A DNA stretch of 64,000 nucleotides from Symbiodinium natans (lineage: Eukaryota; Sar; Dinophyceae; Suessiales; Symbiodiniaceae). The first letter of the stretch is position 1, and each line of letters starts with the position of its first letter. The position numbers and the translations under genes are program-made. This document shows, piece by piece, positions 1,481-55,200 of the stretch. The stretch lies in assembly GCA_905221605.1 (NCBI GenBank), contig CAJNDS010000269.1, forward strand, positions 10,001-74,000. The letters run 5' to 3'. The notes under the pieces are model-generated. The model had not been told where the DNA came from. It saw only the letters and a list, made by a program, of their open reading frames with translations, and ran no database searches.

Positions 1481-3247
1481 TGTTTTTTTTCTTGCTTTTT
1501 TTTTTGGGGGGGGGGGTGGGGAGCGGAGGGAAACATGGTGCCTCGTTTTTCTCATTCCCTACTAAACCAACAGTAAGTCGCGGGAGCTGAGCCAGTTTGG
1601 CAGGCCATCTGTGCAGAGCGTGTTTCTGTCCGCTGGCAAGTCCTTAGTTGCTGAGTTCATAAGACCCCAAAAAATGACACTTTGAGTTCTATCGGGGACT
1701 ATAGTATCCCAAAAAGTGTAAAGTGTGCTCACTCAGCTACTAAGAGTCTGGACCTGCTTTGGCCGAAAGTGCTGGGGAGTGGTTGGCACCACTGGACCGA
1801 TTGAGGGCGCTGTCATCCGGATCTTCGTCCTCGTCATCCAACTGCCTCGCGGCGTCCGCACTACACCCTGGACCCTAAACCCTAAACCCTAAACCCTAAC
1901 CCCAAACCCTAAACCCTGAACTCTAAACCCCAAACCCTAAACCCTGCCTCGCGGCGCCCGCGCGCCCGGCGTATCCTCTCGCCCTTTCCGGAGGCGCTGC
2001 GAGCATCCGCCCGAGGATCCTCCGAGCTTCCTTGAAGAGGTCCTTCCCTTCCGACAGGCCTAGGGTTTGGGGTTTGGGGTTTGGGGTTTGGGGTTTGGGG
2101 TTTAGGGTTTAGGGTTTAGGGTTTAGGGTTTAGGGTTTAGGGTTTGCCTCGGCTGGCCCTCAGAAACCTCCGTAAACAAATCTCTCCGAAGGTATGGATC
2201 CTCTTCAACCCAAGTAGGGAGAACAGCTTCCCAAATACATGATCCCCTTAGACCCAAGTAGGGAAAACAACCAACATGTCCCAAGGGCCCACCTGAAGCA
2301 GGGTTTACATTTCTTGTACTCCCAAAAGGACACCAAATATATATATATGCACTCACCAATATTAAAATTCAAAAAGGAACCTTGTGTACACTCACCCATA
2401 ACAGAAATATAAACCCTGTTTCACCTAGAGGCGGCCATCTTGAAGGCACACGTCGATTGCCAGGGCCAAAGTGCAGACTGGCATCTCACAGTTCCGGTGC
2501 TGAAGCCACCCGATGGCCTGCAGCACCAGATCCTTGCTGAGTTCACAAGCCCCCAAAAAAAAGTGGACACTAGTAGCATAGTAGTATAGTAGTATAGTAG
2601 TATAGCAGTATAGTAGTATAGTAGTATAGTAGTATAGTATTAGAGTATTATAGCATTATAGTATTATAGCATTATAGTACTATAGTATTATAGTATTATA
2701 GTATTATAGTATTATAGTATTATAGTAATATAGTATTATCGTATTATAGTACTATCGTATTATAGTACTATAGTATTATAGCACTATAGCCCCCCAAAAA
2801 AGAGAGGACACTTTCAGTTCGGTCGGGGATTGTAGTACTCTCGTATCCCAAAGAAGTGTACAGCGTACTCCTTCCGCCACTAAGGATCCGTTAAGCCACG
2901 GCGGTGGAAGATGGAGACCATGGAGCAGCAGGCGCGGCCAATATCCATGTCTGCCCCAGCCTGTTTAGGGTTCAGGGTTTGGGGTTTCGGGCCCTAAGCC
3001 CTAAACCCCGAACGCTAAACCCTAAACCCTAAACCCTAAACCCTAAACCCTAAACCCTAAACCCTAAACCCTAAACCCTAAACCCTAAACCCTAAACCCT
3101 AAACCCTAAACCCTAAACCCTAAACCCCAGCCTGGCAGAGGCTCTCCATCCAGCCAAGGGCCAAAAACATGCGCGAGGCGGCCTGGCTCCTCTTTGCTGC
3201 GACCGGGAGCTCTTGGGAACTGCTTGAACTGGGAGCTTCGGAGTGGG
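1010..3247 (-). CDS. 3' part of a multi-exon gene, family not recognised
   Basis: Solved exons (minus strand, gene order right to left) are about 3247-3132, 2960-2889, 2532-2440, 2181-2148, 2059-1948, 1845-1749, 1642-1582, 1364-1273 and 1132-1010, ending in TGA at 1012-1010. All eight junctions conserve codon phase exactly, giving about 266 codons. The product has helical, Leu/Ala-rich stretches (for example DLVLQAIGWLQHRN), an acidic linker (LDDEDEDPDD) and a helix REGHLMALIAGHVAVLNRL that resembles an ankyrin or ARM-type repeat. I cannot assign a family. Every intron is either a telomeric array or a small inverted-repeat element. The 5' end is not found; exon-like islands continue to about 7.3 kb and may belong to it. 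Junctions are inferred from frame, not transcripts. Confidence 0.7.
1133..1272 (-). mobile_element. Introner-like element, family B (GA-AG intron)
   Basis: A 140-bp intron with minus-strand 5' end GATCCACTTAAGGGG and 3' end CCAG. It carries family B inverted repeats: GTTTTCGGAAACCCC near 1246-1260 and GGGGTGCCCC near 1170. The exon pieces TCG|GATCC and CAG|GACCC show a short target duplication (GAYCC). Other family B copies: 4300-4427, 15431-15535, 18436-18532, 19632-19723, 25344-25445, 34357-34425, 62380-62597. Confidence 0.7.
1365..1581 (-). mobile_element. Introner-like element, family A (GC-AG intron)
   Basis: A 217-bp intron with long inverted repeats: CTTACTGTTG.TTAGTAGGGA on the left and TCCCTACTAAACCAACAGTAAG on the right. 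GCGA is duplicated at both ends, supplying the GC 5' site and flanking the AG 3' site. The loop between the repeats holds TA dinucleotides and a G run. Related copies: 6305-6394, 11969-12058, 20896-21081, 62639-62920. Confidence 0.75.
1643..1748 (-). mobile_element. Introner-like element, family J (GA-AG intron)
   Basis: A 106-bp intron. The left end CTTAGTTGCTGAGTTCATAA is mirrored by CACTCAGCTACTAAG at the right end. GAC is present at both exon edges. The internal pieces AAGTGTAAAGTGTG and ATGACACTTT form further pairing. The second copy is the 2533-2888 intron. Confidence 0.7.
1842..1961 (-). repeat. Telomeric-array intron with an 18-bp flanking duplication
   Basis: A CCCTAAA-type array (1860-1943) sits between two copies of the same exon sequence, 1842-1859 and 1944-1961, identical at 17 of 18 positions. 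Splicing at GC (minus 1947) and AG (1847-1846) removes 102 bp and restores one copy in frame. Confidence 0.75.
2060..2147 (-). repeat. Telomeric-array intron (GC-AG)
   Basis: A TTTGGGG/TTTAGGG array of 88 bp between the solved exons 2148-2181 and 1948-2059. The minus-strand ends are GCAAACCC and CCCTAG, with AGGC shared at both edges. Codon phase is kept. Confidence 0.6.
2182..2439 (-). mobile_element. Compound intron: family K plus family I elements
   Basis: A 258-bp intron between exons 2440-2532 and 2148-2181. It holds an inverted-repeat element at about 2299-2425 (CAGGGTTTACATTTCTT versus AGAAATATAAACCCTG) next to a family I introner (about 2200-2297; GTGGGCCCTTGGGACATG on the minus strand). 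One insertion probably landed beside or in the other. Confidence 0.55.
2533..2888 (-). mobile_element. Introner-like element, family J, with microsatellite core (GA-AG)
   Basis: A 356-bp intron bounded by the same ends as the 1643-1748 intron (CTTGCTGAGTTCACAAGCCC left, CACTAAGGATC right), with GATC duplicated at the two edges. The interior 2573-2790 is an expanded TAG/ATT-type repeat (TAGTAGTATAG, ATAGTATT) that explains the extra length. Confidence 0.7.
2954..3134 (-). repeat. Telomeric-array intron with a 10-bp flanking duplication
   Basis: CCCCAGCCTG occurs at 2954-2963 and again at 3125-3134, on either side of an array of about 20 CCCTAAA units. A GC-AG intron 2961-3131 (171 bp) removes the array and one copy and joins CAG|GCT in phase 0. 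Confidence 0.75.
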
Positions 3248-3439
3248 GCAGTAGGGTTTGGGGGGTTTAGGGTTTAGGGTTTAGGGTTTAGGGTTTAGGG
3301 TTTAGGGTTTAGGGTTTAGGGTTTAGGGTTTAGGGTTTAGGGTTTAGGGTTTAGGGCCTGCCTTTCAAAAAGGAAATTATTTGACATAGAGCCATCTCAA
3401 TGAGGATCCCAAAAAATGAGATGTAGTCATCAGCAACTT

Positions 3440-4790
3440 GTCTCAAGAGCCGTCGAGGTTCACCCCCTCAGCAGATGCTGCTGCCAGGCCCACCCCCAGT
3501 TTGGAGACCAGCCGAAGACAGCGATGCGAGTCTGGCATTTGGCCCCGAGCCACCATGTCTCCTGTGTATAGGGTTTAGGGTGTTTAGGGATCATTAGGCT
3601 TAGTTAAGGATATTTAAGGGGGGGGGACCTAGGGCGGGGGTAGTTTCGAGGGGGGTAGTAGGGGAACCCATGAGTGTAGCTGTTGGGAATTTCACCCTAA
3701 ACCCTAAACCCTAGACCCTAAACCTTGGAAGCTCAAACTAAGGTCTTACACGGCAGCCCAGTCTCGTATGACAACAGCTGCCGGCACGCCCGAGAGCTCA
3801 CACGGGAATGCTGCAGAGGTCATTGGCATTGGATTGGACTAGGCTTGAAACCCTAAACCCTAAACCCTAAACCCTAAACCCTGGGGCACCTCGACGTGCT
3901 GCTTGAGCCAAACATCTCAGCTCTCTCTCGCTTTCGTGGCAACTGTCTGAGAACGCCTCGTCAGCCTTCTCGGCAGCCCAGTAACATCCAGCAACCATAC
4001 AAAATGAGGGTTCCCTTCTTTGGGGTTGATTTTTTTTTATCAAGGAACCTACCACAAAAGGTTACTTTATCAAGGAACCTAGAACCACAAAAGAGGGGTA
4101 AAGGGCACCTCTGGGCTACGGAGCTTTCCTGCTGCACACTTTGGTGATTGGATGCACAGACCCGGCTTTGACATCGTCTCGGCTGACTCCCAGAAGCTGC
4201 ACATAAGCCGGCCGTTTTTCCTCAAACCACGTTTAGTGGGCGTCAGGTCGGCATCGCCTTGTCGCGCAATAAGGACGACGTGCTTCATGATGACACAGAA
4301 ATAGGGGTTTACGATGATTGGGGTACCGTATTGGGGGTCCTCTTTACAAAGGGATCCTACTATCTGGGCCCAGAATCTGGGACTCTATACTAGGGGTCCC
4401 TTGTTTTCGTAAACTCCCAAATTTCTAGGGGTTAGGGTTTAGGGTTTAGGGTTTAGGGTTTAGGGTTTAGGGTTTAGGGTCTAGCTAGTTAGTCTAAGAA
4501 CCGCCTCTCGTGGATATCGCACGTGGTGCCGATGAAGTTCATGGCCCTACCGGCGCCAGCACGTAATACGCACACGCTTGGCCCGACTTGGCCCCTGAGT
4601 CTGACCCCAAAAAAACCGTAAACCCTAAACCCTAAACCCTAAACCCTCGAAACCCTAAACCCTGACATAAATAAGCCTTTGCTTTGCAAAGTGTCCTTGC
4701 ATGCCCGGAACTGCGTTGGGCCCGCAGCTTCTTCGAAGCAGCTGCCCAGTGGCAGCCCGCACTCGGGCCGCGAAAAACCCTGTTATTCTG
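3440..4790 (-). CDS. Exon-like islands between telomeric arrays
   Basis: Minus-strand stretches with good coding character lie at about 3440-3545, 3730-3835, 3893-3995 (contains EKADEAFSDSCHESERELR), 4140-4280, 4500-4590 and 4680-4790. Each is flanked by TTTAGGG or CCCTAAA arrays or by elements. They probably extend the gene ending at 1010, but joins were not solved. Family unknown. Confidence 0.35.
3590..3690. mobile_element. Partial family N element
   Basis: Matches the right half of the 7801-7966 element: GGTAGTAGGGGAACCCATGA here against GGTAGTAGAGGAACCCATGA there, preceded by a related GGGGGGGACCTAGGG stretch. Confidence 0.45.
4300..4427. mobile_element. Family B inverted-repeat element
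   Basis: Starts GGGGTTTACGATGATTGGGG and ends GTTTTCGTAAACTCCCAAAT. The inside has the usual GGGATCCTACTATCTGGG block seen also at 34400 and 62540. Confidence 0.6.
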
Positions 4791-23471: not shown

Positions 23472-23747
23472 CAGCTGTGTTTTCCATGATTCGCAACTGG
23501 TGCGCCGACAAGAAGCTCAGCACTAGTTTAAGGTTTAGGGTTTACGGGGTTTGCGGCTATAACACCTGCACCTGCATTCTGACGACGAAGCCATAGAACC
23601 AAAAGCTTTGACTCACCTCAAACAATGGTGCCGCAAACCCTAAACCCTAAACCCTAAACCCTCAGGGTGACTCGTAAGGCTTCCTTTCTGAAGTCATAAG
23701 GTGCCTCTCAGAGCCTGGTAAGTTGACCCCCATCTCACAATCTACTA

Positions 23748-23902
23748 GTTGCTTAAGAACCCCCAGAACAATAACATGTTCCTCCTTATAAGGGCCTTAT
23801 AGGGATTTTTATTCTTTATTGAGGGGGGTTCTTAAGCAAAGAGTAGGGGCCTTGTAGGGAATTTTATTCTTTATTTGGGGGGTTCTTAAGCAAATAGTAG
23901 CA
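23748..23902. mobile_element. Inverted-repeat element, family E, with an internal repeat
   Basis: TTGCTTAAGAACCCCC at the left. At the right, GGGGGGTTCTTAAGCAAA occurs twice, at about 23823-23842 and 23877-23894, each preceded by the block AGGGATTTTTATTCTTTATT or a close relative. Related copy at 39965-40066. Confidence 0.65.
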
Positions 23903-24251
23903 ACAGCGGTGTACGAAGATGATTGTCCATGGTCATCCACGGGTGTGAATTAACAATACCAGCGGGATATACCTTAAGAATGAACATATCGAGTAGGTTC
24001 ACGTGCTGCCTGGCAAAAATCAAACCTTTTTCGCCGCTCACGGATGGCCAAAGTTTGGTGCAGCGTGGCCGAAGATTTCCAAAACTCCGTTGGACAGGAC
24101 TTGTATCCACCAAGCGAAGCCCAGCATTGTGAACAAACATATGACACTTGCCACCGCCAGCGTCTTGCACTAGTAGCAAGTTGAGTGACGGTGATGCACT
24201 TTGGTCATTCAGACAATGCCAAGCAGACTATGGACGCGATGGTTCGCTCCT

Positions 24252-25088: not shown

Positions 25089-25343
25089 TCAGCCTTAACA
25101 ATTTCGATCTATCCCATACGTAGACATATGTGTGCATGAAGAAAGGAACCTGACGTTTCTAAAGCCTTACGTCCCAAACCCCCAAACCCCCGAATAAGCC
25201 CCACCCTAAAGCCTAAACGGTTGAGCCAAATGCCACCGCCGAAGTATCTCTCCACCTGCATATCCAAGAGCAACCCAACTGACACAGACATGGAGAGTCT
25301 CCAACGGCAAGGGTCCCCCCTCACATGCGACATTCGGAGATGG

Positions 25344-25445: not shown

Positions 25446-25499
25446 ATGTGACCAAGAAGGGAAACGCAAATGGAACTGTTTGAATATCCCCAGGGCCTA

Positions 25500-26210: not shown

Positions 26211-26289
26211 GGTTTAGGGTTTAGGGTTTAGGGTTTAGGGTTTAGGGTTTAGGGTTTAGGGTTTAGGTTTTAGGGCTTAAAGCCCGTAA

Positions 26290-32186: not shown

Positions 32187-32917
32187 TTGGGGGTGGGCTC
32201 TACCATCATTTACTATGGGATTTGCGCTACCCACCGTGGGCCCTCCGTTACAGCTCCGTTACAGCACCTGCTACAGTTCCGTTACAGCTCCGTTGCATCT
32301 CCGCTACAGCTTCCACTAGAGCTCCATTACAGCTCCGTTGCACCTCCGTTACACCTCCATTACACCTCCATTACAGCTTCCGTTACAACTCCATTGCAGC
32401 TCCGTTACAGCTCCGATGCACCTCCGTTACAGCTCCGCTACAGCTCCGATGCACCTCCGTTACAGCTCCTTTACAGCTTCCGTTACAGCTCCGGTACAGC
32501 TCCGTCACAGCTTCCGTTACAGCTTCCGTTACAGCTCCGTTACAGCTGCAGTACAGCTCCGATGCACCTCCGCTACAGCTCCGTTACAGCTTCCGTTACA
32601 GCTCAGTTATGCAGCTCCGTTACAACTCCTTTGCACCTCCATTACAGCTCTGCTACAGCTCCCGTTACAGCTCAGTTGTACAGCTCCGTTACAGGTCCGT
32701 TATCACGCTGCTGCTTCTGCTACGGCTCCGTTACAGCATCGCTACAGCCGGTATAGCGCTCCGTTGCAGCCTTCCGATATGGCTCCGTTACAGCTCCGCG
32801 ACTAATCCGTTACAGCTCCGCTCCTTTCCGTTACAGTTTCCGTTACAAGCCCCGTTACCGGCGAGCATTTCTGTTATAGTAGAGGCCTGCAAATGATGGT
32901 AGAGCCCCGCCCCAACC
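32187..32917. mobile_element. Minisatellite bounded by about 26-bp inverted repeats
   Basis: The left end 32187-32212 contains GGGCTCTACCATCATTT; the right end 32891-32917 contains AAATGATGGTAGAGCCC, its exact complement, with more pairing outward. Between them lie about 650 bp of degenerate tandem TCCGTTACAGC (11-12 bp) units. CCCCTAAA repeats flank both sides. The long open frames here (Ser/Leu/Thr-rich) are repeat artefacts. Confidence 0.85.
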
Positions 32918-33507
32918 TAAACCCCTAAACCCCTAAACCCTAAACCCTAAACCCTAAACCCTATTCCTCAACTCAGGGCTATGGGAGTGCTGTGCGCCCG
33001 ACTCTGGATCCAGCCGGGCCCAGGCTTGCGGGGCGCCTGAGGACCGGTGGGTTTAGGGTTTAGGGTTTAGGATTTAGGGCTTAGGGTTTAGGGTTTAGGG
33101 TTTAGGGTTTAGGTTTTTTTTTTCAAGGTTCCTTAGGGTTTAGGTTCACAGGGGGTTTGGGGCGCTCCTTCCCTGTTAGTTAACTAGCCACAGCACAGCG
33201 GGGTTCAATGGTTCAGGGTTTAGACTTTCGGAGAGGGTGGAGGGTAGGGGTTAGGGTGTAAGGGTTTTGTGTTTAGGGCTGGTCCTTGGGTCTGTCCCTT
33301 TAGATCTGAGCAAGGTAGCGAACCATGCTGACTGCAAAAAATCTTCTGATTGTTGCAAAACGATGCCTTTGAAATGGATGCTAAGTGTAACATGATATTG
33401 TGCAATATGAACGGCATGACGGGATGCGAGCTTGTTGCTGGTACCCGAAGAGCCCGACAAGAAATTCAGCAATGGGCCTTCGATTGCAGACGGGGTCCTA
33501 AGTAGCA

Positions 33508-33508
<1 letters not shown>

Positions 33509-33584
<76 letters not shown>

Positions 33585-33662
33585 GGTCGTCGTCGTGGTC
33601 GTCGTGGTCGTCGTCGTCGTCGTCGTCGTCGCTGTCGCTGTTGTTGCTGTTGCTGTTGCAGT
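33509..33662. repeat. (GTC)n / (GTT GCT)n trinucleotide repeat
   Basis: About 40 GTC units then a GCTGTTGTTGCT-type extension. The poly-Arg frame over it is not supported as a gene. Confidence 0.95.
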
Positions 33663-34091
33663 AGCTTAATTGTAGCTTAGTAGTAGCTTGGTAGCAGCTT
33701 TCTAGTGGCAGTACGAGTAGGAGTCATGGTAGTCTGTAGTGGTCGTCTCACGATGTGGCAACTCCCTGCGAGCCCTACTGCAGCGCTCTTTGAAACTTCC
33801 AGCACCTCCGGAGTTCATCTCCGGGCCTTTGCCTGGACTACCTCCTACACGAGGGTAGTCCGGCCGCCTCTACGTCATAATTGCGCGTTCACCACAAGAC
33901 GAAGATCAAAGCGATGCTACAAGCTAGTTCGAAGGACTGTAATGTACAAGGCATGCACAGAAACGGTCACGAGGCTTGGCAGTCTTATGCTGCAAGTTAT
34001 GACATGTACAGAGTCGCCCTTCATGTGACAGCTGCGGAAGATTCGGGCTAGTGCAGGCCAAACCTGCTTTACAACCACTCTCAACTGCGGG

Positions 34092-34290
34092 AAATGCGGG
34101 TCCTCTTCATGGGGGTGTCAGATTCTGAATCAACCACTGACGAAGCATGGCATCGGCGAAAGCATCGCCCTCCACCGCATCAATGCCCAGCATGCTCATT
34201 TCTCGCGGATCTTTCTGCGGCATATCCGCATCCACGCGCGAATACCTTGGAGCAGCCGATATACCATCCAGAAAAACCACCTACCCACCC
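34092..34290 (-). CDS. Last exon-like island with stop codon
   Basis: Minus strand reads VDADMPQKDPREMSML, then GIDAVEGDAFADAMLRQWL and ends with a TGA near 34109. Good coding composition, family unknown. Confidence 0.4.
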
Positions 34291-34937
34291 CCTTACAGGC
34301 AGACACAACTCTACACCCAGGAGTTGGGGCAAGGTTGGTCAGGCCATTCTTATATGGGGGGTTTACGATCTTCGGGGTCCCCACCTTATTTGGGGTCCTT
34401 ATTACAAGGGGATCCTACTATTTGGGGTTTAGGGTTTAGGGTTTAGGGTTTAGGGTTTCGGGTTTCGGGTTTCGGGTTTAGGGTTTAGGGTTTAGGGTTT
34501 AGGGTTTAGGGTTTAGGGTTTAGGGTTTAGGCGAGAGGCAAATGGCGCCAGAGCGAGATGCCATCGTCGAGTCCAATCTCCGGCAAAGCTCTCAACCTTG
34601 GGGACGACATGAAATCGAAAAGGGTTTTATGGCTGATTATAAATATGCCTTAATGGGAATTTAGAGTAGTATAGGTGGTTCATATAAATATACCTTAATG
34701 GGGATTTAGAGTAGTCTAGGGCATAGGACCCCAATTTTTGGGCCCATTTGGTCCCCAAGGAACTCTTTGGACTCTTCCCGAAGCTCCCGCACGACGATGT
34801 GGCTGTCAATGCTGGCCTTTCCAGACATGTCCATGCTCACTTGTTCTTTGTTTAGGGTTTAGGGTTTAGGGTTTAGGGATGTTTAGGGTTTAGGGTTTAG
34901 GGTTTAGGGCTTAGGGAAAGCAACAGACGACGCAACA

Positions 34938-35745
34938 TCAGATCCAAGATACCATTTTCCAGACCCCTGCGTCAAGTTCTCTTTGAAGCTGATTGCGTGT
35001 CCAGCCACAGTAGCCGAAGAACCTGTGATCCAACACTTTGAACCCAAGCTTAGCCTGCTACATTACAGCAACGAACCATCTTCGTCACGGTATGTGGGGC
35101 TACGCAGCTAAAGTGTGGGCACGGGCCCGAAGACTATAGCACGAACCGACCAATCACAAACTATAGGGGTCGGAATAATTACTACTAGTGTTTCCTTGTG
35201 GTCCCTTCATAGTTCTAGGATAATGACCCAAAATTGGTAAGCTAGCTCCGCAGGAGGACAGCATGAAGTCGTCAGGCGTCGCACGGCCCTGCTTGACTAG
35301 ATCTTGCGCTTCGTCGAAGCGGATCAAGTACACACCCTTCTCAACCTCCCTGGACATCTCTGCAAACTCAGCTGACACGTGCAAGCAGAAGGTCTTGACC
35401 CGTGTATAGTGGGGTGCGCGGAGGCCCTCACAGTCGCCACCGAACCAGATGTTCCATGCGGGGCCAGGCAAGCCGAGCTGACGGGTGTTGAAACCCGAGG
35501 GGCGGTTGACGATGATGCCTCGGGATGTTCCCCCCCTATACTAAGAATCAGCCACAGGTCTTCTTATTTTGAGGGGGGGGGGGGGGTACTAGAATCCCTG
35601 TTCAGGACTCGTTGAACAAGGGGAAGATTCCGAATCATGCCTCTATCGAACTCATCGTCATGATTGAGGACGAGAATAGCGGACTTGTGGAAGTACTGCT
35701 GGTGGTCGATGAAGGTATCACCGGGCCGCGCCATCAGCACACATC
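34938..35745 (-). CDS. UPF0301 / AlgH-type (DUF179) protein, three solved exons
   Basis: Exons 35745-35641, 35518-35260 and 35022-34938, with both junctions exact in phase. Exon 1 reads GCVLMARPGDTF and SAILVLNHDD; exon 2 reads IIVNRPSG, WNIWFGGDCEGL, GVYLIRFDEAQDLV and ATPDDFML; exon 3 reads FFGYCGWTRNQLQRELDAG, a few residues and TGA. This is the order of blocks in DUF179/AlgH proteins (N-terminal G-x-L-x-A-x-P, N-R-P, the G-G block, and F-x-G-Y-x-G-W). The molecular role of the family is not well known. About 148 residues are covered; a 5' exon with the start codon must lie upstream, beyond the telomeric tract at 35755-35790. Confidence 0.75.
35023..35259 (-). other. GT-AG intron of the AlgH-type gene
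   Basis: A 237-bp intron, minus-strand ends GTCCTCCTGCGG and GGATCACAG. Joining ATGCT to GTTCTTCGG gives the conserved M-L-F-F-G-Y. No clear inverted repeats. Confidence 0.65.
35515..35643 (-). mobile_element. Introner-like element, family C, with a 7-bp target duplication (GC-AG)
   Basis: ATGCCTC occurs at 35515-35521 and 35637-35643. The intron 35640-35519 (122 bp) starts GCATGATTCGG and ends CATCCCGAG. The duplicated bases supply both the AG and the GC splice dinucleotides. The family C ends CGGGATGTTCCCCCC and GGGGAAGATTCCG are visible, with a G-run in the loop. Confidence 0.8.
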
Positions 35746-35825
35746 CTCTTAGAGTTTAGGGTTTAGGGTTTAGGGTTAGGGCTTAAGGCAGAGAGGGGGG
35801 GGGGGTGTTCAAGGGGGGTAGGTAC

Positions 35826-36026
35826 CTAGGGAAGGTTACATAGCCCCTTGAACCCCCCCCCCCTCCCCTTAAGAACCCTAGAAGTCCTTGCTGAATCACC
35901 GGAGAGGAGTAGGCAAACTCTGGAGCCGAATTGGACTCGTAACGCTCTTCCAAGAAACCGCTCCCGGCCTTTCAGGTCAACAGAGTCAATGCTGGACACT
36001 TGAATAGGGTCCCCAAAAAAAACCAC
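35826..36026 (-). CDS. Possible upstream exon
   Basis: Open minus-strand stretch (about 35890-36000) that reads SSIDSVDLKGRERFLG in one frame and EERYESNSAPEFAYSS in another. It may hold the 5' exon of the AlgH-type gene, but frame and ends are unsolved. Confidence 0.25.
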   Translation of the reverse strand: MVFFGDPIQVSSIDSVDLKGRERFLGRALRVQFGSRVCLLLSGDSARTSRVLKGRGGGFKGLCNLP

Positions 36027-36121
36027 ATAAACATAAGGATCCTACAAACAGTGGTTTTTTTCCGGAATGCCCCTGCTAGGGGCCCTTATACCCCAATAGG
36101 ATCCTTATGTTACGTGGTTTC
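36009..36121. mobile_element. Inverted-repeat element, family H
   Basis: CCACATAAACATAAGGATCC at the left, GGATCCTTATGTTACGTGG at the right. A partial relative is at 27530-27575. Confidence 0.65.
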
Positions 36122-36451
36122 GGGATGTTTCGGGCCCCTAACTCGAGCGTGCCATGAGTGAATGTGTTGAACTTCAAACACTTTTACCTGAAGGTTTGGA
36201 CTGTGCCAGTGTTGTCCATGATTAAACTCGCTTTCGCCGGAATCCACAGAGATGTTGTGGGTTTAGGGTTTAGGGTTTAGGGTTTAGGGTTTAGGGTTTA
36301 GGGTTTAGGGTTTAGGGTTTAGGGTTTAGGGTTTAGGGTTTAGGGTTTAGGGTTCAGGGCCTACAACTAAAGTAAGCACATCATCTGAGCCACAGAGCCC
36401 CCTCAAGTCCAACGTGATCCAACGCACCCATTCTCGTGCAAAACGTGGCTT

Positions 36452-37057
36452 TCAACATCTTTCAACAAACGCGGGCGCCTGGTACCCGGCAAGGCCTGAA
36501 AGGATCAGCAACCAAGCAATCTTGCGGCGGTTGTTCGCTTCAGGCACATAGGGCCGGCGGCTGTCCCGGCGCTTCCCGGCCAAGCGCCGGCCAGGCACGT
36601 AACGGGTTTGCGCAGCCAGTTCTGAAGACTGGGCCCAAGTGGCCACGCCGCTGACCATCGGCCTTTTCACCTCTGCCTGGCCTCCAACCCAGGCAGTGTA
36701 GGTGCCATTGGCCACATCACGGAGGACGAAGTCGAGCACACAAATGGCAGGAATCAGTGCGCAAGCTGCGGTACGTCGCAGGCTCGGCATTTGCACAAGA
36801 AACAGGGCTGGCTCTACAGGCATCCGAACCTTATCGGCCATCGACAAATTCTTCATCTCAACTGACGTCAAACAGAGAGAGAGGGACATACACACATACA
36901 CACACATGTCCTTATATCCTATGGTCCTGCAGTCACATTCCACCTTTTTGTGTGCTGGCTCTGCACAGTCCCCGACGCAGTGGTAGTTGAGCCCGTCGCG
37001 CCTCTGACGACGAGACAACTTCAAATCAAGTTGAACGCTGCGACTCTCCGCAACCAA
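36452..37057 (-). CDS. Hypothetical open frame, perhaps two exons
   Basis: A 201-residue minus-strand frame. The stretches VLRDVANGTYTAWVGGQAE and ADKVRMPVEPALFLVQM look coding; a TATG-type simple repeat at 36885-36910 in the middle suggests an intron. No family recognised. Confidence 0.3.
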   Translation of the reverse strand: MVAESRSVQLDLKLSRRQRRDGLNYHCVGDCAEPAHKKVECDCRTIGYKDMCVYVCMSLSLCLTSVEMKNLSMADKVRMPVEPALFLVQMPSLRRTAACALIPAICVLDFVLRDVANGTYTAWVGGQAEVKRPMVSGVATWAQSSELAAQTRYVPGRRLAGKRRDSRRPYVPEANNRRKIAWLLILSGLAGYQAPAFVERC

Positions 37058-37624
37058 GCCCAGGCCTAGGACCAGGCTTGCGACAGCCTTCTGCGAGCCC
37101 TTGCGCTCGATCTCCTAGCGTGTGGCATTGGGCGTCAGATTGGACTTTAAGATGGGGGGGGGTGAAAGCTAGACAGCTACATGACTCGCTGTCTTCGGGG
37201 TCTAGTTTAGGGTTGAAGGTGGCAATGACGGCAAGGCCAGTCGGCCTGCATGCGACTCAAAATGCTGCGAACATGTGTTTATATGCATATGTATATACAT
37301 ACGCATATACATATGTGTATATATATATACATCTTATGTGTGTGGGGGTGAGTCGGTTTTGATGGTGTAGAGCTTCGATTCTCAACCCCCCTTCCCCCTC
37401 GCAACCCCCCCGCACGCCTTTTAATTCAAGTCGCTTTGTGACCTAAGCCCTAAACCCTAAACCCTAAACCCTAAACCCAGAGATTTGCAAAAGATAAGCA
37501 CCGCATAGCTGGGAGCTTTGGCTTTTGCGACACCTTTGGTTCTTTGGCACCCTGGGACATGGCCTCAGGACATACTTTTCCCTAAACCCTAAACCCTAAA
37601 CCCTAAACCCTAAACCCTAAACCA

Positions 37625-37905
37625 ATCCCAGGTCCCTCCTGCATCCGCGTGAGCAGGCGGCGGTTCTCCTTCTCAATGCTGGAGTAGCGTTCCTGCGCAA
37701 AGGCACGGCGATTTTGGGCACGTTGGCCGAATGTCACTGTCCAGTTTAGGGTTTAGGGTTTAGGGTTTGGGGTTTGGGGTTTAGGGTTTAGGGTTAGGGT
37801 TTAGGGTTTACGGGATTCGGAGGTCCTCAGCTATCTGCTCCTTCTTCGCGTTGCGGAAGCGCGTGGGCTGCAACTTTGTCTCTTCGCCTTCATGCCCAAC
37901 CGAAA
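37625..37905 (-). CDS. CFAP97-like exon pair
   Basis: Minus strand 37905-37810 reads LQPTRFRNAKKEQIAEDL; 37745-37625 reads RAFAQERYSSIEKENRRLL and TRMQE. The second piece has the E-x-x-x-S-I-x-x-E-N-x-x-L-L-x-R-M pattern of CFAP97-type coiled coils (ciliary proteins). The intron between them is telomeric (37747-37810). Adjacent pieces near 38020-38080 and 38100-38170 may be more exons. Confidence 0.45.
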
Positions 37906-38279
37906 CCCTCAACCCTAAACCCTAAACCCTAAACCCTAAACCCTATGCCTTTCAGCATCGATGCCGATAACTGTTTCGGCCAATTCTACTAAAGGTCCTC
38001 TAACGCTGCAGCAATTGTTTTCATGTCATCGACAGTTGCAGATGTTGAAGGGCAGCTTTCGCCCCGCTCTAAGCTTGTAGGGTTTAGGGTTTAGGTTTAG
38101 GGTTTCTTCTGACCCGAGGCCCTGGCGCACAGACCACTGGTTGTTGATCAGGGAGCGCGACCTCATGCACACAGCGCCCTTCTAGCATCGGGGCTCGCAG
38201 GGACGTGGGCATCCCCGTCAAGAACTGCTGGCTAATCAGGCGCCCGCGAGAAAGGAAGCAGACACAACTGAACCGGAAA

Positions 38280-38462
38280 CGTTAAACCCTAAACCTCAAA
38301 CCCTAAACCCTAAACCCTAAATCCTAAACTCAAACCCTAAACCCTAAACCCTAAACCCTGAACCCTAAACCCTAAACCCTAAACCCTAAACCCTAAACCC
38401 TAAACCCTAAACCCTAAACCCTAAACCCTAAACCCTAAACCCTAACCCTAAACACTAAACCC
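38280..38462. repeat. Interstitial telomeric array (CCCTAAA)n
   Basis: About 25 CCCTAAA units with few changes, one of the longest in the window. Confidence 0.95.
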
Positions 38463-38635
38463 TGAGGTTCCCAGGCCTTGCGACTTTCTGCTTGTGGGCC
38501 TGAGGCATATTGCGCGTCTACTCCCAAACCCAAAAGCCAGCGGGTTAGCTCACCGATTCCCCCTATATCTGAGAGGTTTAGGGTTTAGGGTTTAACGTTT
38601 AGGGTTTAGGGTTTAGGGGTTAGGGGTTAGGCCGT

Positions 38636-38745
38636 AAGAGGAGACCCCTCATATATTCCCGACATACCCTATACAACCCAAGGGCCCATGCTTCAGAACC
38701 CTTTAAAGGAGGTAAGGGACAATGTTAGGGCCCCATGTACTCTCA
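38636..38745. mobile_element. Dispersed element, family O
   Basis: Shares CATACCCTATAC, then ATGCTTC.GAACCCTT and AGGTAAGGGAC with 40063-40165. About 100 bp; ends not defined. Confidence 0.45.
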
Positions 38746-39964
38746 CACTCGCGCACAGTCAAGGCACAGGGCCTCTCGATCTGCAGTCTTCTCAACTCTT
38801 CAAACACCCAATCGAACCCAGCATCGAACAGAAGGGTTTAGGGTTTAGGGTTTAGGGTATAGAGTTTAGGGTTTAGAGTTTAGGGTATAGAGTTTTGGTT
38901 TTAGGGTTTAGGGTTTAGCGTTTAGGGTTTAGAGTTTAGGGTTTAGGGTGTAGGGTAAGAAGCGTTTTGAAGTCATTGCAGTGCAGTGCCAAAGCATGTT
39001 GGACCCTTGGAGTACACGCGGTGCTCAGGGAAGGCTACAAGCTGGCGTGCCCTAAAACCATACGGGGGGGAGTTGATCCACAGGTCCTCCTTGGGAAACT
39101 ATTCAGGGTTCTCACGGACTTTCGATTCAAGGGTAACGTAGGGTAAACTTTGGGAGCAGGTATGTTTGATCAACTACCACAAAAACCCTAAACCCTAAAC
39201 CCTTTTTTGTTCCCAGGCTCTGAGCTGACCCTAAACCCTAAACCCTAAACCCTAAACCCTAAACCCTAAACCCTAAACCCTAAACCCTAAACCCTAAATG
39301 CATGCCGCCTCCAAGAGTCTTTGTCTGACCCAAACCTCGACCTTTTCGTTGCAGGCTGGCCTTCGACTCACGCGGCAAATTTGGGCACTTCCCAAAATAG
39401 GTTTAGGGTTTAGGAAAGGACCTCCACATGGGTTTAGGGTTTAGGGTTTCGGATTTAGGGTTTAGGGTTTAGGGACATGCATCCAAACTTGGGCATTTCC
39501 CAGAATAGGAGGTATACCCTTATGTGCCCAACATGTCTTACAGTCGACTTTCAAATCGAAAACCTCCAAATAGGTTTAGGGCTTAGGGCTTTGGGATGTG
39601 TTGGGTCTTGGGCTTTGAGGGTTTTGGCAAACCTCCCCAAATCAAAAGACTCCAACCGGCCTCTTCGCATCAATCCTGGGTCAGAGGCAGAAAGATGTTC
39701 CAACACCATTGGCCCAAGTTTTGGGCCTCTTCGCTGTCCAAAAAAAAAACAAGGTGTAGAGACCCCCCTAAACCCTAAGCCCTAAGCACTAAACCTAAAC
39801 TGCCAGGAAAAAAAACGCTACCAAACGAACCCTGTAACCCTGTAACCCTAAACCCTAAACCCCAAACCCTAAACCCTAAAACCCCTGTACAGGCTTGCGG
39901 ACGGCGGAGGAGCCTCTCAGACCCGGAAGGATGCCCCTAATCCTAATTATGTTAAAACTACCCT
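38746..39964. other. No gene recognised
   Basis: Telomeric tracts at 38835-38960, 39225-39298 and 39400-39475, and unique sequence between them without a convincing exon. Confidence 0.35.
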
Positions 39965-41548: not shown

Positions 41549-41598
41549 GCGGCAGCTCCCGTGAAGCTGCAAGCCCAGACACGGATGGACGAGCGTAG
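41549..41598. repeat. Left half of a dispersed sequence, split by the LINE/telomeric insertion
   Basis: Matches 63693-63742 (GTGAAGCTGCAAGCC, then GACACGGATGGACGAGCGTA) up to GTAG, where the telomeric array starts. The right half is at 46398-46465. Confidence 0.75.
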
Positions 41599-42195
41599 GG
41601 TTTAGGGTTTAGGGTTTAGGGTTTAGGGTTTAGGGTTTAGGGTTTTGGGTTTAGGGTTTTGGGTTTTGGGTTTAGGGTTTAGGGCTTAGGGCTTAGGGTT
41701 TAGGGTTTAGGGTTTAGGGTTTTTTTTCGCTCCGGCATAGCGGGCCGAACCGCAAGGCAGGGTGATGTCGATGAGACGTCTGTGTCGGAAAAAGGGGGGT
41801 CCACTACCGGACCAAACCGTTCTGCATGCTATTTCCCTCCTATGAAAGCCAACATCGCTATCAAGGGTTTAGGGTTTAGGGTTTCTGCAGCACCATCTCC
41901 AAAGAGCGAATATCGGGCGCCAACGTGAAACACGAGTCTGCACCGCAAGCCCAGGACACCAAAACCCCAGCACCCCAAAAAAAAACCCAGAACCCCACAA
42001 CCCAAACCACAAAGCCCCAAAACACCAACCCCGACCCAAACAAGACCACGAACCCGAACCCCCGAGGCCGAAACCGCAAAACCCTCCCAGGCCTGCCGAT
42101 GCAAAAGGTGAGCAACTCTGAGGGCCATGCCAACATTTCAGGCTAGCCTCAGTGAAGCCTCACTCAAGCTAAGAAACCTCGAATGACAAATCACA

Positions 42196-43789
42196 TCACA
42201 CGCGCGCTCGCGCAAAGGCCTCCGGCATCAAATACAGCCAGCTGGCAGGAAGCCGGCTCCACTCGACCACTACATGCATCTCCCCGCTCCAAAGCGGTCG
42301 AAAGGCAGTGGGCCACTCCAACTCAATCTCGACATGAAAGTGCAAGAAAAGGCGGACATGCACAACTTTGAGCTCCGTTGCTACGAGATCTTTCAGCCGA
42401 CCCAAGAGCGTGCCAGCCCCAGGACAAGGCCACTCAGATTCGTGCTCCACCCAGCCGCGCACCCTGTGATGATATGCCAAGGTATAGCAGCGGCCACCAA
42501 TGCAGGCAAACACAGGCTTTGACCGTGCAGCAACCCCTAGAAGACATCTCCTACTCCACGACTGGCACTGCTCGTCCACCTGCAGAATGTTGGTCCCCGC
42601 CGCGGATCTCTCCACTGCCCAGTGCGTGAGCCAACCCTCTGCCAGGCCTCGCCAGGCAACTCGGTCTTGCGCAACCTCCTGCATGTCTAAGCCTTGAGCC
42701 GCCAACCACCGGGCATGCCGGCGCCAGGAGGAGTTGTCAGGGCCAGTTCGTGCTCGTCGCCCCCCTTCTCGCTGACAAGCCATGAAGGAATCTTCGCAAG
42801 CTACAACCATGCGCAGAAGAGGAGCATGCTGATGCCGGAGAGCATGACCAAGCCACGCCCAACCTTGTGAGAGGACGTACGCGTCGAGCAGACAACCATA
42901 CCAGGCCCTGCACCAGCACTTAGCAATATGTCTCACCTCCGTCAGCATTCGAACATCACACCACTCTTGATGGCAAGTCAAGCCTAGGATCAAAATCATC
43001 ATCGTGACCCCATGCACCCTCACTTGGCGGAGAAGGTCAGCAGAAGGGCTTACACAGCCTATCAACCAGCGCACTGTTGACATGACCAAAGCGTGGTGCA
43101 GCGCAAGCTTCTGAGGGATGCTGGAGGCAGCAGACACCAGCAGCGGCCGATTCTGCATGAAGGCAGCTGAAGTGCGCGACAGCAAAGAAGACACCAGCGG
43201 CTCATCCGTTCCCGATAGGGACAAAACTGCACCAAGAAACTTAACGTGGTCCACCTGCGGCAGGCCGCGCAGCCCCACTGGCAGGCCGCGCACGGTCGAC
43301 AAGGAGAGCAGCGCGCATTTGTGAATGTCAATGCTCAGGCCGGCGCAACGGAGAGCATCGAGAAGTTGTGGCAGCAACGTAGCAGCTTGGGAGAGCGAAC
43401 GGAAAAAGCAGAGCGCATCATCCACGAACCAGACAGCCCACAGCTTGAGATCATGCTTGCCAAACGGCGGCACATGGCCTGCAGCAACCCACTGCTCCTG
43501 CAAGTCGCGCATGATCTGGCAGACAATATGCGAAAACAGTGACGGGCTGTGAGTGGCCCCCTGAGCAGTGCCCCTGACAACAGCAGCGCAGCAAAGGTCA
43601 AGCGGTTCTTGGTGAGCAAGCTCCAGACGAAGCGTGATGATTTGTGGGTCGTTTCATGCCTGAACCTCGCCAAGAAGCGTGCCACCATCGCCAAGTCCAA
43701 CGAATCATAAGCACCAGATAGATCCAGTTTTATGACAACTTCGCTCGATTGGAAAACTGAAATCTTGGACAAGCAGGCCTTGACCGTGC
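42196..43789 (-). pseudogene. LINE reverse transcriptase, remaining part in two shifted frames
   Basis: Frame 1 (about 43789-43590) has the catalytic motif A VIKLDLSGAYDSLDLAM. A one-base shift near 43585-43595 moves to frame 2 (about 43590-42196), which has motif B GTAQGATHSPSLF, motif C WFVDDALCF with the catalytic Asp pair, motif D SIDIHKCALLS and motif E VKFLGAVLS. A C-terminal domain of about 300 residues follows, without a clear RNase H. Two frame breaks (near 43790-43815 and 43590) disable the protein. Confidence 0.75.
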
Positions 43790-45259
43790 CTATACAGACA
43801 CACCGCGCCGGCCCCCAAACAGGCAAGGCGGCGGCGGCCAATACTGCAAGAATCGAGCCATACACACTCTTCCCAGCAGCTTGGCGATCACGTCGCCCAA
43901 GACGATGGGCCGGGTCTCCCTGACCGTAGTGACCACTTTCTTCTTAGGCATGAGAACTGCAAGCCCCTCAAACAAGTCACCCTGCTCAAAGCAGTCGGGG
44001 TCGTCGAGGATGTCCTGCAGCACAGATCGAACCACATGGAGGCCTGCGTCACACCCGCAGGCCGCCTTTAAGAAGTCGGTGGAGACACCACTCATTCCCG
44101 TCGTGGTCCCAGACTTCATCTTGAAAAGATGCTCACAGACCTCTTGACCACTCAAATCGGCTTCATTCTCGACTTGATCTGCATGGGCTACCCACGGGAG
44201 TGTTTGAAACACGCTGGAATGGTCGCACTCAACAGAAGCTGCAACCCCGAGCTTGGCATGGTAGTGGGCCCGCAAAGCCCGCACAGCCTCGTCCCTGCCA
44301 CCCTGCTCGCGCACCAACGGGGCAAAGACTGCGGGCTTCTTGGCGCCCCGCAAGATGGCCCGTCTCGCACCCCAATCACCTTGAGCCGCCTTGTCTAGCA
44401 TCCGTCGCCTCCACTGACAACGATCCTGAGCGCGAGTCTGGAAGATGCGCAGACTGAGATGCTTGCGGACACATGGGTCCACCGTCATCCTCCGTGCCTG
44501 AATGAGCTGCTTAACGGCATCCGAGTCCCGGTATGATGGCGGCCGTAAGGGAACAGTGCAATCCTGTACCTCTTGAAGCGCCCAACTAGAAGCCAAGCAC
44601 CAGTTGACAGCAATGTGATCAAGGCGTCTCGTTCCCCCAATCCTCGTGGGCGCAGAGTCGTGAGAATACACTGTCAATGACAGTCGCTTCAGGCAGCAGG
44701 CCAGCATAACAGCCCGGGAAGATGCATCCCCAACCAATGGGTAATTGAGATCCCCAAGCAATAGCATGGGACATGCAGAGGTCGTGTACGGAGCCAGACA
44801 CTCTTCAAAGGATTGTAGCGCACACACGAAGTCAGCCTCAGGCTTGGCGCAATGAGGAAAGTGGGCAACAATGTAGAGCTCAAAGCGAGGGCATCCCGGT
44901 CTCAAAACCTCAAGCTGCATGTGAGAGTGGCCCAACACCAGTTTTCGGTATTTGGACTCAGCCTCCAGCACCAAACCCACTCGTCGGAAAACCCCAGGCA
45001 ACTGAGCATGCCAGCAAACTGAAAAACCGTCGTCAAGCAATGTCTCGCAGAACTGGGCATCACCACACTGCAAACAGGTCAGTTCCTGCAACGCAAGAAC
45101 ATCATAACTCAAATCGCATGCATCAAGTGATTGCATAATCTCTTGGAGATGTTTGCCTTGCACATTCCACGTTGCCATGGACAGCAGCCGCACGTGATCT
45201 TCACTGGGTTGATGTCCATCGCCCTGTATGTCCAAATTCACGCCCAAAATGGGCAGCAT
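43790..45259 (-). pseudogene. LINE APE-type endonuclease and start of reverse transcriptase
   Basis: A 489-codon frame. Endonuclease/exonuclease/phosphatase motifs: MATWNVQGKHL (Asn), DVLALQELTC (Glu), LLLGDLNYPL (Asp and Asn) and RRLDHIAVNW (Asp-His). The reverse transcriptase starts near residue 330 with SGTTTGMSGVSTDFLKAA and MPKKKVVTTVRETRPIVLGD (RT motifs 1 and 2). The frame stops at 43790 through a frameshift; RT coding continues in another frame. Confidence 0.8.
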
Positions 45260-45280
45260 GTAGTCGCCATCCTGCGAAGG

Positions 45281-46260
45281 TCAGTGAAAGTGAGCCACCC
45301 ATGCCGCCACGACATCGTCAGGCTGCTGCCCTGTGGCCTCAGCAATGGCTCGCAGATCCACCCAAACCACCCTCTCAAGCCACCGTGCGTAGGAGTGGGT
45401 TGGGCATTGGTCCAACGGGTTCTCGGCTGGGATGGATCCCATGACCCTCTTCTCCTTGATGTATGCCCTGAGACCATTCCAACTGGCGACCTCCATGGCA
45501 TCCTGTCCCAGACTCAACTTCTGGCTCAGGAAGTTGGAAGTCCTGGCAACGCACCTGCCCAGAATCCTTTGCAGAGGAGGCTTGTCAATGAGGACCCACG
45601 TAGGCTTGTCACACCCGCGGGCCTGCCATACATGCTGCTTGAGCTTGGTGAGGACCTGCTGCTGCTCATACCGCTTGTCATGGGAGAGGCTGCTGGGAAA
45701 GGCCAATTGGAGCCTAGCAGATCTGGGCCGCTTGCCGTAAACCTTGATGGCTGCCACCTGGCATCGCACTCCAGCTGCATCAATTTGCTTGTTGACGTTT
45801 TCCTGAATGTAGGAGAGAACTTCGCCTTCACACCACCCTCCCACAACCAAGTCAAATGTTGGAAGCACAGAGCCAGGGATGGCCCCAGACCCACCAGGCG
45901 AGGATGCACCGGGAGAGGATGCCCGGGGACTCTGCAGCTCACGCACCGCTCCTTGAAGCTCTGCAACCTTGGAAGCCAAACCCTCATCTGCCGGCCTAGG
46001 CTTCTGAAGTTCAACCACAGCCGCCCTCAAGTCTGAAACCTCCCTGGAGTGTCGATCTTCCAACTCAGCAACTCGGTGGGTCGTCTGACTCAGCTCCTCC
46101 CGCATGGATGTGAGAGCTTCTTCTTGACGAGCTGATTGAGTGAGAAGAGTGCGAATGTCAGCTGTGATAGGGCAGAGAGGCAGCAAGTGTCTGTTGAAGC
46201 ACAGCCTGGAATTCTGACATGGGAACCAGGGCATCCTCAACCCGTGGTTTCTTGGTTGGA
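45281..46260 (-). pseudogene. LINE ORF1-like protein, frameshifted near the start
   Basis: Minus strand. The open frame 46240-45281 (319 codons) has a coiled coil (residues about 40-110, with EELSQTTHRVAELEDRHSRE) and a Ser/Pro linker. A basic middle part (IKVYGKRPRSARLQLAF, KLKQHVWQARGCDKPTW) suggests nucleic acid binding. Coding character before 46180 continues in another frame (KKPRVEDALVPMSEFQAVL), so the N-terminus is shifted by an indel near 46175-46185. It lies just upstream of the endonuclease frame, as expected of a two-ORF LINE. Confidence 0.6.
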
Positions 46261-46397
46261 CTGGAGTCGCGTGGCACTGAGACAGCTACTTCATGGGCAG
46301 GCGTTAGGGTTTAGGGTTTAGGGTTTAGGGTTTAGGGTTTAGGGTTTAGGGTTTAGGGTTTAGGGTTTAGGGTTTAGGGTTTAGGGTTTAGGGTTTA

Positions 46398-46465
46398 GTA
46401 GTGCAAGTGCGCAACGCCTGCTTGGAAGCCCTACTATCAGAGGTGCTGCTTCTTTCTGCGCCGGA
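46398..46465. repeat. Right half of the split dispersed sequence
   Basis: GTAGTGCAAGTGCGCAACGC and about 50 further bases match 63739-63805. It starts exactly where the telomeric array ends. Confidence 0.75.
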
Positions 46466-52207: not shown

Positions 52208-55200
52208 CTGCAGGTTTGGGATGTTCCCCATGATCAAGATTATAGTACCCCCTGTTGTAATCCCTACTAAGGACTGTTAGTATAGAGGGGAACAAAATAG
52301 GGATGATAGTACCCCCCTCATAATCCCTATACTAAGGGCTTTTAGTATTAAAGGGGAACATCCGAACCGGTCAGAACCTGCAGGGCTCTTTCCAGTAGTT
52401 CCTCGCCCAACCAGGCGGGCACTCGCCACAAAGGAAGCCAGTGGAGCCTTCCGCACAGGCATTGTCATACCTTCATGGTGGTCATGGCATTATATAAAAA
52501 AATTGAATGTCTATTCCTTGTTGGGTTTAAGTACCCTTGAAGATGCAAGATGTTACCCAACTGATGTGACAAAGAGACTTCCCCATGCATTCCTGTGCCC
52601 CACTACCTTCTGCACACGAACCGCCTCCCAGGCAAGCGCTGACGCCATCGTCCATAACGACGTTGCACTTGATGGCGGTTGTAGGGGCCGTTTGGAAATA
52701 GCCGGGTCGTGCGACGGGAAGGCGGTGACGATCTGTCTGCTCGTAAAATCCGCCGAAGCAGCTCAGGTGAGTGAAGGAAACGCAACTGGCACAGCGTACC
52801 AACAAGCCTGCTTCATCAAGCTCTGCATAGAACCCAGCTATGCAAGAGCAGTTTGACAGGCTCGTGGATGCGCTTGGGCTGTCGGAGTTTGTAGGGCATT
52901 GAGAGGGACAGATTGGCTGATTGGCAGTTGTGGGCTTGTAGCGCCCGGCTTGGCACGGTTCACAGCTAAACCCCGAGACAGACTGCAGGCTGTAGTGCCC
53001 TTCTAAGCAGAGGCAGTCCAGCTCGTCGCTTGAGCCAGCAGATGAATTTGAGCCCACAGTGCAGCGCAGCTCCTCGCCATTGTTGCAAAAGAAACCCGGT
53101 GAGCAATCACGGCAGCCATCACCTTCCGCTGTCGTCCCCGGCCGGCACAGGCAGTCGAGCACCGAGGTAGCAGCCTCCATCGATATCTTGTCAACAGAGC
53201 ACCTGTCGCAACGGAGATTCCCCACATTCGCTTTGTACTCACCTGCTGGGCAGGCTGCGCAGCCAGCCTCTGCATCTTCGTAACCATAGCCATAACTGCA
53301 TTCGCATTCATTGGTGGCCCCCGTGGCGTTGCTGAACGTTCCCGGACCGCACTTAGAGCAAGGCACATTGCCACTGCGGTCCTTGAAATAGCCAACCGCA
53401 CAGGGAACACAATGTCCATCGTCCTGAGGGAAGGTGCCCGCCATGCAAACGCACTGGGATTGATTACCAGCTGTGGGACCCTCGGTGGTGGTCTGAGAGG
53501 CTGCGCAGGGCTGCTTGTGCGTACCACCCATGCAGAAGAATCCGAGGCCACACTGCTCACACGCCGAAGGCTGGTCAGGTCGGCTGTTGACATAGCCCGG
53601 CATGCATGTGCAGGACGTCAAGGCTGTAGCTCCTCAGGGTCAAACATGTACTGGGCCAATGAGGAAACCGTATTGTTACACACAAGTAGGTTCCTAGCAC
53701 GCTAACAATAAGTTCCTTATCAAGAACCCAGTTTACAGTTTAACCGGCGGATGTTTGAACAAAGCAGTCCTGCAGCGGGCAACTTTTTTAAAACCCGAAA
53801 CCCTAAACCCTACACCCTAATTAAACCCTAAACCCTAAACCCTAAACCCTAAACCGAGCCTGAACATCCCGAGGTTCGGTTAACATCCGCAAGATCTTTT
53901 AACACTCAAACTCCCCCTTTACCCTAAACCCTAAACTTGGGATGTTCTCCCTTACACGAACAGTCCTTAGTGTGGATTATACTAGGGAACACGATATTCT
54001 CGATTAAGGACTGTTAGTATCAGGGGGAACACCCCAACCCTAAACCCTTAAACCCTTAAACCCTTAAACCCTTAAACCCTTAAACCCTTAAACCCTTAAA
54101 CCTTTAAACCCTTAAACCCTTAAACCCTTAAACCCTTAAACCCTAAACCCTAAACCCCTAAACCCTAATGTTTTTGGCCCATTCCCAGGTCTCCTACGGC
54201 GGAGGTCGTCGATCCTGCAGGGCATATTTGGCAGGCGCCGGCATCCCAGTAGAGCCCCAGTAGGCATTTGCCTGGGTTGTTGTTGAGGAAATGTTTTACC
54301 ATAATGGGGATACATAGTAAATGATAAGGTTTCCTTGTTATAATAACTTAAACTTAAGTTCACATAATGGGGATTTTTAAAAATAATAGGGTTCCCTCAT
54401 GATAGTGGCTTAGCTCAAGTTCCTGAGCAGCAACCCAGTTGCAGTCGCTGAGCTCACTTGAGCCGGCCAGGGCCGTGCTGTCCGCCGGGCAGGGATTCAG
54501 CTGCTCACCTCCTTGGGGAGCAAATGAACCCTAAAATTGGGGTCAAAAACCCTATACTACTATAGGGTTTGGGGTTTAGGGTTTAAAGTTTAGGGTTTAG
54601 GTTTCAATTCCTATTAAGGCATATGAACCAGAAACCCTTTTAGGGTTCATTTCGTCCCCAAGGCTCCGGGACAGTAGTGATCCACCGGACAGACCTGGCA
54701 TGCCTCCGAGACCTCATACTCGCCAGGAGGGCAAACGAGGCGCAGCCGCAGCGCCGTGGCCAAAAACTCCTCTGCGGAGGCACAGGGCCTGCCAGGTTTA
54801 GGGTTTAGGGTTTAGGGTTTAAGGTTTAGGGTTTAGGGTTTAGGGTTTAGGGTTTAGGGTGCGGAGGCACAGGGCCTGCCAGCAGGGCACCAGCAAAGCT
54901 CCACCACCCGGGGTCCGATCTCGGGGTCCAAGAAGCCCAAATGCAGCTCGAACCAGCTCATGGACTCGTTGAAGGAGATGTCGGCGCTGCGCTGATGGGC
55001 AGATGCTGCTTTGGTCCTGCACTGTTCTTGTAGGAGAATGCGGTCGTCCACTGTGATGCCCACTCCACGCCATTCGGAGATGACGCACACGGAGCCCAGG
55101 TCGCACTGGGCGGACTGGTTGAGGTAGGGCCCCTCCACGATGAAGTGGCCCAGGTCAATTTGAAAGTCCACTGCATGGCTGCAGTTTGCATCGCAACCGC

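Follow-up and report, generated by a model that had tools for sequence, protein, structure and literature searches.

The window, a stretch of 64,000 nt from Symbiodinium natans, carries on its minus strand a gene for a conceptual conserved protein (gene 1), a gene with a CFAP97 domain, and a gene whose product has MAM, RCC1, SRCR and kelch domains (Table 1). Exon mapping by codon-usage gene finding was too weak for short exons. The predicted proteins P0074 and P0075 were the only matches to gene 1 (two among 2864 candidates). Seven introns of this gene were placed with homologs and one by eye; four of the seven contained arrays, case 1 below counted, and three were of the transposon type. A reading of 2146-2205 as coding was dropped after comparison with the homologs.

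For the CFAP97 gene, a composite query matched four proteins (the four listed among 7995 candidates), three of which have a CFAP97 domain. Guided by P0076, a predicted protein from an MMETSP transcript, we mapped 24 exon anchors from 39368 to 14369. The gene matches a 376-residue protein and spans 25 kb, with at least 24 mostly short exons. Two of its exons on the same strand are separated by a 14.6-kb gap (37059-22503), in which open frames match short-chain dehydrogenase, diphthamide synthase and DUF1810, and which may represent nested genes or a split gene. The MAM-domain gene holds an internal duplication of about 780 bp with 84% identity (59469-62172).

TTTAGGG has been described as the dinoflagellate telomere repeat. 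A hidden Markov scan of the window recovered 112 telomeric arrays, occupying 7.9 of its 64 kb. Across the assembly (759 Mb, 2543 contigs), (TTTAGGG)4 had 853,942 forward and 852,709 reverse matches, about 1.7 million exact, overlapping matches of this 28-base word, while the reversed pattern had 21 and 10. Tandem repeats are difficult to assemble, and an assembly artefact was therefore considered, to which we give next to no credit: the density of exact 28-mers was similar in the window (2.55 per kb) and in the whole assembly (2.25 per kb), the arrays in the window are degenerate, and their flanks restore conserved proteins. The 7-base unit runs through all frames and has a stop in each, so that a longer array in an exon is either spliced out or breaks the protein. 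An uneven array density along the genome was suggested by the first listed match on contig C1 of G000, at 235651, and by a sampled locus (L012, contig C380) that was array-free. Matches to U6 spliceosomal RNA adjoined telomeric arrays on the minus strand at 6696-6800 and 1-68, one of them truncated by the window end.

Table 1. Genes, introns, duplications and insertions discussed in the text, in window coordinates
Feature	Position	Strand	Remarks
Gene 1, conceptual conserved protein	1020..3560	-	62% / 53% identical to predicted proteins P0074 / P0075
Transposon-type introner, gene 1	1365..1581	-	inverted ends, 4-bp GCGA duplication, GC-AG
Transposon-type introner, gene 1	1643..1748	-	related to 2533-2888; 4-bp GACT duplication; placed by eye
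Case 1 duplication, acceptor side	1842..1859	-	18 bp, one mismatch
Case 1 candidate array intron at duplicated sites	1846..1947	-	102 bp, GC-AG; coding both sides
Case 1 duplication, donor side	1944..1961	-	18 bp, one mismatch
Gene 1 intron	2060..2432	-	array 2061-2145 at 3' end supplies CCCTAG acceptor
Transposon-type introner, gene 1	2533..2888	-	inverted ends by eye, 4-bp GATC duplication, GA-AG
Case 2 duplication, acceptor side	2954..2963	-	10 bp
Case 2 predicted array intron	2961..3131	-	171 bp, GC-AG, 96% telomeric; homologs P0074/P0075 continuous
Case 2 duplication, donor side	3125..3134	-	10 bp
Array with duplication	14045..14082		9-bp duplication CCATGCCCC overlapping its ends
CFAP97-domain gene	14369..39368	-	23 introns placed with P0076; arrays in 16/23; splice-point repeats 1-7 nt
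Array near 3' end of CFAP97 intron	15200..15257	-	10-bp duplication, 4 nt off array on one side
Insert bounded by TTTAGGG arrays on both sides	41596..46398		LINE-type element within; empty site at 63739/63740
Transposon-type introner, kelch gene	54512..54666	-	GA-AG; absent from paralogs; telomere-like stretch 54563-54604 inside
Case 3 duplication, acceptor side	54773..54795	-	23 bp, exact
Case 3 predicted array intron	54789..54875	-	87 bp, GC-AG; telomeric array and one 23-bp copy; absent from two same-genome paralogs
Case 3 duplication, donor side	54860..54882	-	23 bp, exact
Paralogous empty site for insert 41596-46398	63691..63800

Predicted array introns with duplicated splice sites

A first-pass annotation had described three arrays bordered by direct duplications, and we verified both the coordinates and the letters of all three (cases 1 to 3). 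As it had proposed, each duplication permits a GC-AG intron with both sites inside the duplicated block, and each of these minus-strand introns cuts the same register in both copies. All three lengths are multiples of three, a divisibility on which we place no weight. The further proposal that splicing removes the array together with one copy was supported by homolog-guided splicing in cases 2 and 3; in case 1 the guide favoured another pair of sites.

Case 3 lies, as had been claimed, in a well recognised gene, that of the MAM, RCC1, SRCR and kelch domains. When compared by eye, the spliced protein was gap-free at the intron site along the homologs P0001, P0002 and P0003, the last of which, from Symbiodinium microadriaticum, was the nearest of the homologs assigned to a named species (57% identity). 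Splicing guided by P0002 selected the duplicated sites with a margin of 17.5 score units. On contig C52 of the same genome we found two paralogs with 84% and 82% identity over all 92 residues searched (51 matches were listed); the open frames that contain them are 2471 and 1057 aa long. Their DNA lacks exactly the 87-bp insert, and presence and absence are thus established at the DNA level; both also lack the 155-bp transposon-type introner next to it. Between the two 23-bp copies there is no difference, and against the paralogs there are 5 and 6, so that the duplication postdates the divergence of the paralogs. In the paralogs, CCGG stands where the copies in the window have CAGG. AG|GC may thus have been there before the insertion or may have come later, a point against the explanation that we prefer below.

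The case 2 intron interrupts MESLCQA|GADMDIGR, a stretch that is uninterrupted in P0074 and P0075, the presence/absence comparison here being at the protein level only. Guided splicing selected the duplicated sites with a margin of 11.0 score units. The insert is arranged head-to-head, TTTAGGG flipping to the CCCTAAA orientation near one end. Case 1 sits in a variable linker between two conserved stretches of gene 1. Its exact direct repeat at the splice points is 13 nt long (18 nt with one mismatch), and the homolog guide favoured 1963-1868 over the duplicated sites by 2 score units. Judged from the sequence, this appears to be a real and unusual mode of intron gain, with good support at two loci and probable at the third.

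These introns were compared with all others placed with homologs, 37 in total (23 + 7 + 3 + 4), of which 23 had GC, 7 GA and 7 GT donors. In the guided splicing, a donor preceded by AG, an acceptor followed by G, and GT earn bonuses of at most 3 points, which slightly favours short repeats. Six placements had a margin of 2 or less, two each in the CFAP97, gene 1 and P0078 rows, and case 1 was among them. Arrays were present in 24 of the 37 introns by the script's count, or in 25 with case 1 at its duplicated sites. Only in the three cases did the array make up more than 70% of the intron (53-62% in four other introns), and only there did the repeat at the splice points exceed 7 nt. Array shares above 70% thus coincided with repeats of at least 10 nt in 3/3 introns and in 0/34 of the others (P = 1.3e-4, with a post hoc threshold and with case 1 at its duplicated sites).

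Arrays might instead have colonised pre-existing introns, the repeats at the splice sites reflecting chance or convergence on AG|G. Most genic arrays in the window fit such an origin, including those in the CFAP97 introns with their short repeats. For the three cases it is scarcely credible: matches of 23/23, 10/10 and 18 with one mismatch exceed those in the other 34 introns (maximum 7 nt), and exact loss from both paralogs would be needed to explain their lack of the case 3 intron. The insertion origin put forward in the first-pass annotation is therefore upheld for case 3 by two paralogs from the same genome without the exact insert; as a general rule it does not extend to the other 34 introns, with their repeats of 7 nt or less.

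A further alternative is that a short tandem duplication within the exon made the intron first and that the array arrived later. Tandem duplication of exon pieces containing AGGT is among the proposed routes of intron gain in PMC3443670, a review of such routes. In all three cases, however, the array fills the space between the copies with little or nothing else. Two separate events, equally precise three times, would be a less simple history, and we regard this alternative as improbable.

Arrays and introners elsewhere in the window and genome

The window's 112 arrays included 107 that were at least 20 bp long and clear of the ends; seven of these were dropped for tandem-repeat flanks, leaving 100. 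A flank repeat score of at least 5 was reached by 8 of these 100, where 1500 random local segments predicted 1.0. An earlier form of the test gave 9/100 against 0.73 (4000 segments), and in a control with cross-paired flanks, a score of 6 was reached by 8/112 arrays and by 0.23% of 3000 pairs. When gaps were allowed and the local controls left unmasked, the window showed no clear excess, with 11 against 7.8 at score 8 (cross-paired flanks 2.6). These controls were inflated by microsatellites, and the gapped test was replaced by the tests with tandem repeats masked.

The first-pass annotation had named a lack of excess flanking duplications as evidence against its own reading. Outside the window this is what we found: in nine other 10-kb loci (4 + 5), one of them the array-free L012, 0/138 arrays reached a score of 4 against 2.7 expected, and with L001 in place of L012 0/141 reached a score of 5 against 1.3 expected. 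The window differed from the sample at P = 0.0007, or 0.011 excluding the three reported arrays, a difference that may be partly due to ascertainment since the window was picked because the cases had been seen there. Duplications were consequently dropped as a general mark of arrays. Either most arrays insert without duplicating their target, or they are too old or have another origin. The arrays at 41348-41430 and 17535-17612, with short repeats of 7 and 9 nt, are not claimed as new introns.

A larger insertion has its own empty site in the window. Its flanks match two adjoining stretches, 41547-41595 being 96% identical to 63691-63739 and 46399-46459 being 92% identical to 63740-63800. The 4.8-kb insert between the flanks has terminal TTTAGGG arrays in the same orientation, and TAG is common to its junctions; these three shared bases may be a duplication or microhomology. 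Within it lies a LINE-type element (about 41723-46303) whose 3' end is oligo-A and whose adjacent frames encode a reverse transcriptase domain and an endonuclease-like one, the endonuclease match being barely above the cut-off. We infer that the insert began as an array insertion, which the LINE entered later. SART and TRAS are LINEs that target telomere repeats. The element in the window resembles them in lying between TTTAGGG arrays of one orientation, a likeness that does not imply membership of their clade.

The main rival to our explanation is that target-primed reverse transcription of the LINE type copied telomeric-repeat RNA into the exons, the duplication then supplying the splice sites. 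This process likewise yields target duplications of variable length, and duplications of 10-23 bp fit LINE insertions. The adjacent endonuclease-like and reverse transcriptase frames just described also speak for it, as far as the marginal endonuclease match allows. The oligo-A 3' end of that element and its position between arrays, on the other hand, suggest a user of arrays and not their maker, and the head-to-head structure of case 2 is unexpected from a single RNA copy. We consider this origin unlikely; at the level of sequence, break repair and insertion based on reverse transcription are not separated by the present data.

Transposon-type introners occur in the same genes. One end of the introner at 1365-1581 has matches at 6303, 11968, 20896 and 62638. 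For 1643-1748, guided splicing favoured 1753-1651 by 1 score unit. The telomere-like stretch 54563-54604 was rejected as an insertion relative to a copy at 34.6-34.8 kb, because on alignment it takes the place of a stretch of similar length. When the window was compared with itself after masking of arrays and tandem repeats, the nearby transposon-type introners gave matches, and none of the three case loci showed a shared flanking family. A repeat family with inverted ends, recognised by eye, was present at 34357-34420, 4298-4422, 25337-25447, 18463-18527, 15431-15531, 19618-19721 and 62506-62552. The right half of the 34-kb family copy is missing where an array begins (TTTGGGG|TTTAGGG), which would fit the capping of a broken end. 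Another element (32186-32916) has long inverted ends, again recognised by eye, and a CTCCGTTACAG tandem repeat, with CCCTAAA arrays on either side.

The three cases could accordingly be introners of this transposon type that carry telomere-like sequence by chance. Such introners adjoin arrays, one of them holds a telomere-like stretch, and the telomeric ends of case 2 are inverted (score 21.5 for inverted ends). Cases 1 and 3 are without inverted ends (scores of 3.0, computed for the alternative splice choice of case 1, and 6.5), and the duplications are not fixed at about 4 bp, making this origin very improbable. The introners in the same genes, with their duplications of about 4 bp and their inverted ends, are distinguishable from the array introns.

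Origin of the array introns

We suggest that the three arrays are probably young introns, formed by insertion of telomeric DNA into exons at staggered breaks, with AG|GC splice sites provided by the resulting duplication. In this explanation we infer two things, that the introns are spliced in this species and that break repair took place. A staggered break would open within the exon, and telomeric DNA would join it, either by telomerase addition at the exposed 3' end or by capture of a fragment. Fill-in of the staggered ends would then duplicate a coding stretch of 10 to 23 bp. Where the duplicated block holds an AG|GC that the splicing of this genome accepts, the array and one copy would be removed and the original message restored. 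Arrays in introns or repeats need no such rescue, and the arrays surviving in exons would be the spliceable ones.

At five chosen junctions the flank extended the telomeric register by 2, 3, 1, 1 and 3 nt, where 1/3 nt is expected; the case 3 junction is one G short of the register. Duplication lengths of 10, 18 and 23 bp vary in a manner unlike a transposase, and the head-to-head array of case 2 looks as if both broken ends had gained repeats. The variable duplications, the structure of case 2 and the joins in register all suit telomeric DNA joined at staggered breaks.

Introns of Daphnia pulex gained in double-strand-break repair were reportedly described by Li et al. in 2009. In PMC4202315, Daphnia neointrons have exon repeats of 4-12 bp (33 repeats of that kind), which are attributed to staggered breaks. 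The array introns share with them insertion into an exon, an exon end repeated directly on the other side of the intron and a filler unrelated to the gene, as well as intron-free copies, here the paralogs of case 3 (DNA) and the homologous proteins of case 2. They differ in that the filler is a telomeric array and the repeats reach 18-23 bp. Roy et al. (2023) are said to have treated introners, including a Symbiodinium type with 4-bp duplications and inverted ends. In PMC9860276, inverted ends and/or a short target duplication were found in 59.2% of 130 introner families, and splice sites derived partly or wholly from the duplication. The array introns are likewise exonic insertions that create an intron, with splice sites that can derive from the duplication. 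Unlike introners, the only sequence they share within the window is the host telomere repeat, their duplications are longer and variable, and cases 1 and 3 lack inverted ends.

Interstitial telomeric repeats of primates and rodents entered at breaks, with or without a target duplication or deletion (PMC2246262, in part). The inserts described here are similarly bounded by telomeric repeats and have an empty site elsewhere (case 3 and 41596-46398). The array introns differ in lying in coding exons of an array-rich genome, and intron creation is not mentioned in the available part of PMC2246262. Target duplications are absent from arrays in general in the nine sampled loci, and insertions without duplication are also known. 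None of the titles and abstract openings listed by full-text term searches of CC-licensed literature joined telomeric arrays with introners or intron gain, which is no proof of absence. The best reading of the array introns is that introns of the break-repair type with a telomeric filler, unlike the transposon-type introner, are created occasionally.

It is doubtful that telomeric insertion at breaks is a genome-wide, non-transposon source of introns, one that draws on cellular telomere maintenance and takes its splice sites from the target duplication; as a generalisation this fails on the present data. How introns originate is still debated, and clean examples of the break-repair route are few. 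A recognisable filler, an intact duplication and, for case 3, an empty site in the same genome make this route directly testable, and the abundance of the telomeric word in the assembly offers many places in which to count exonic insertions becoming introns.
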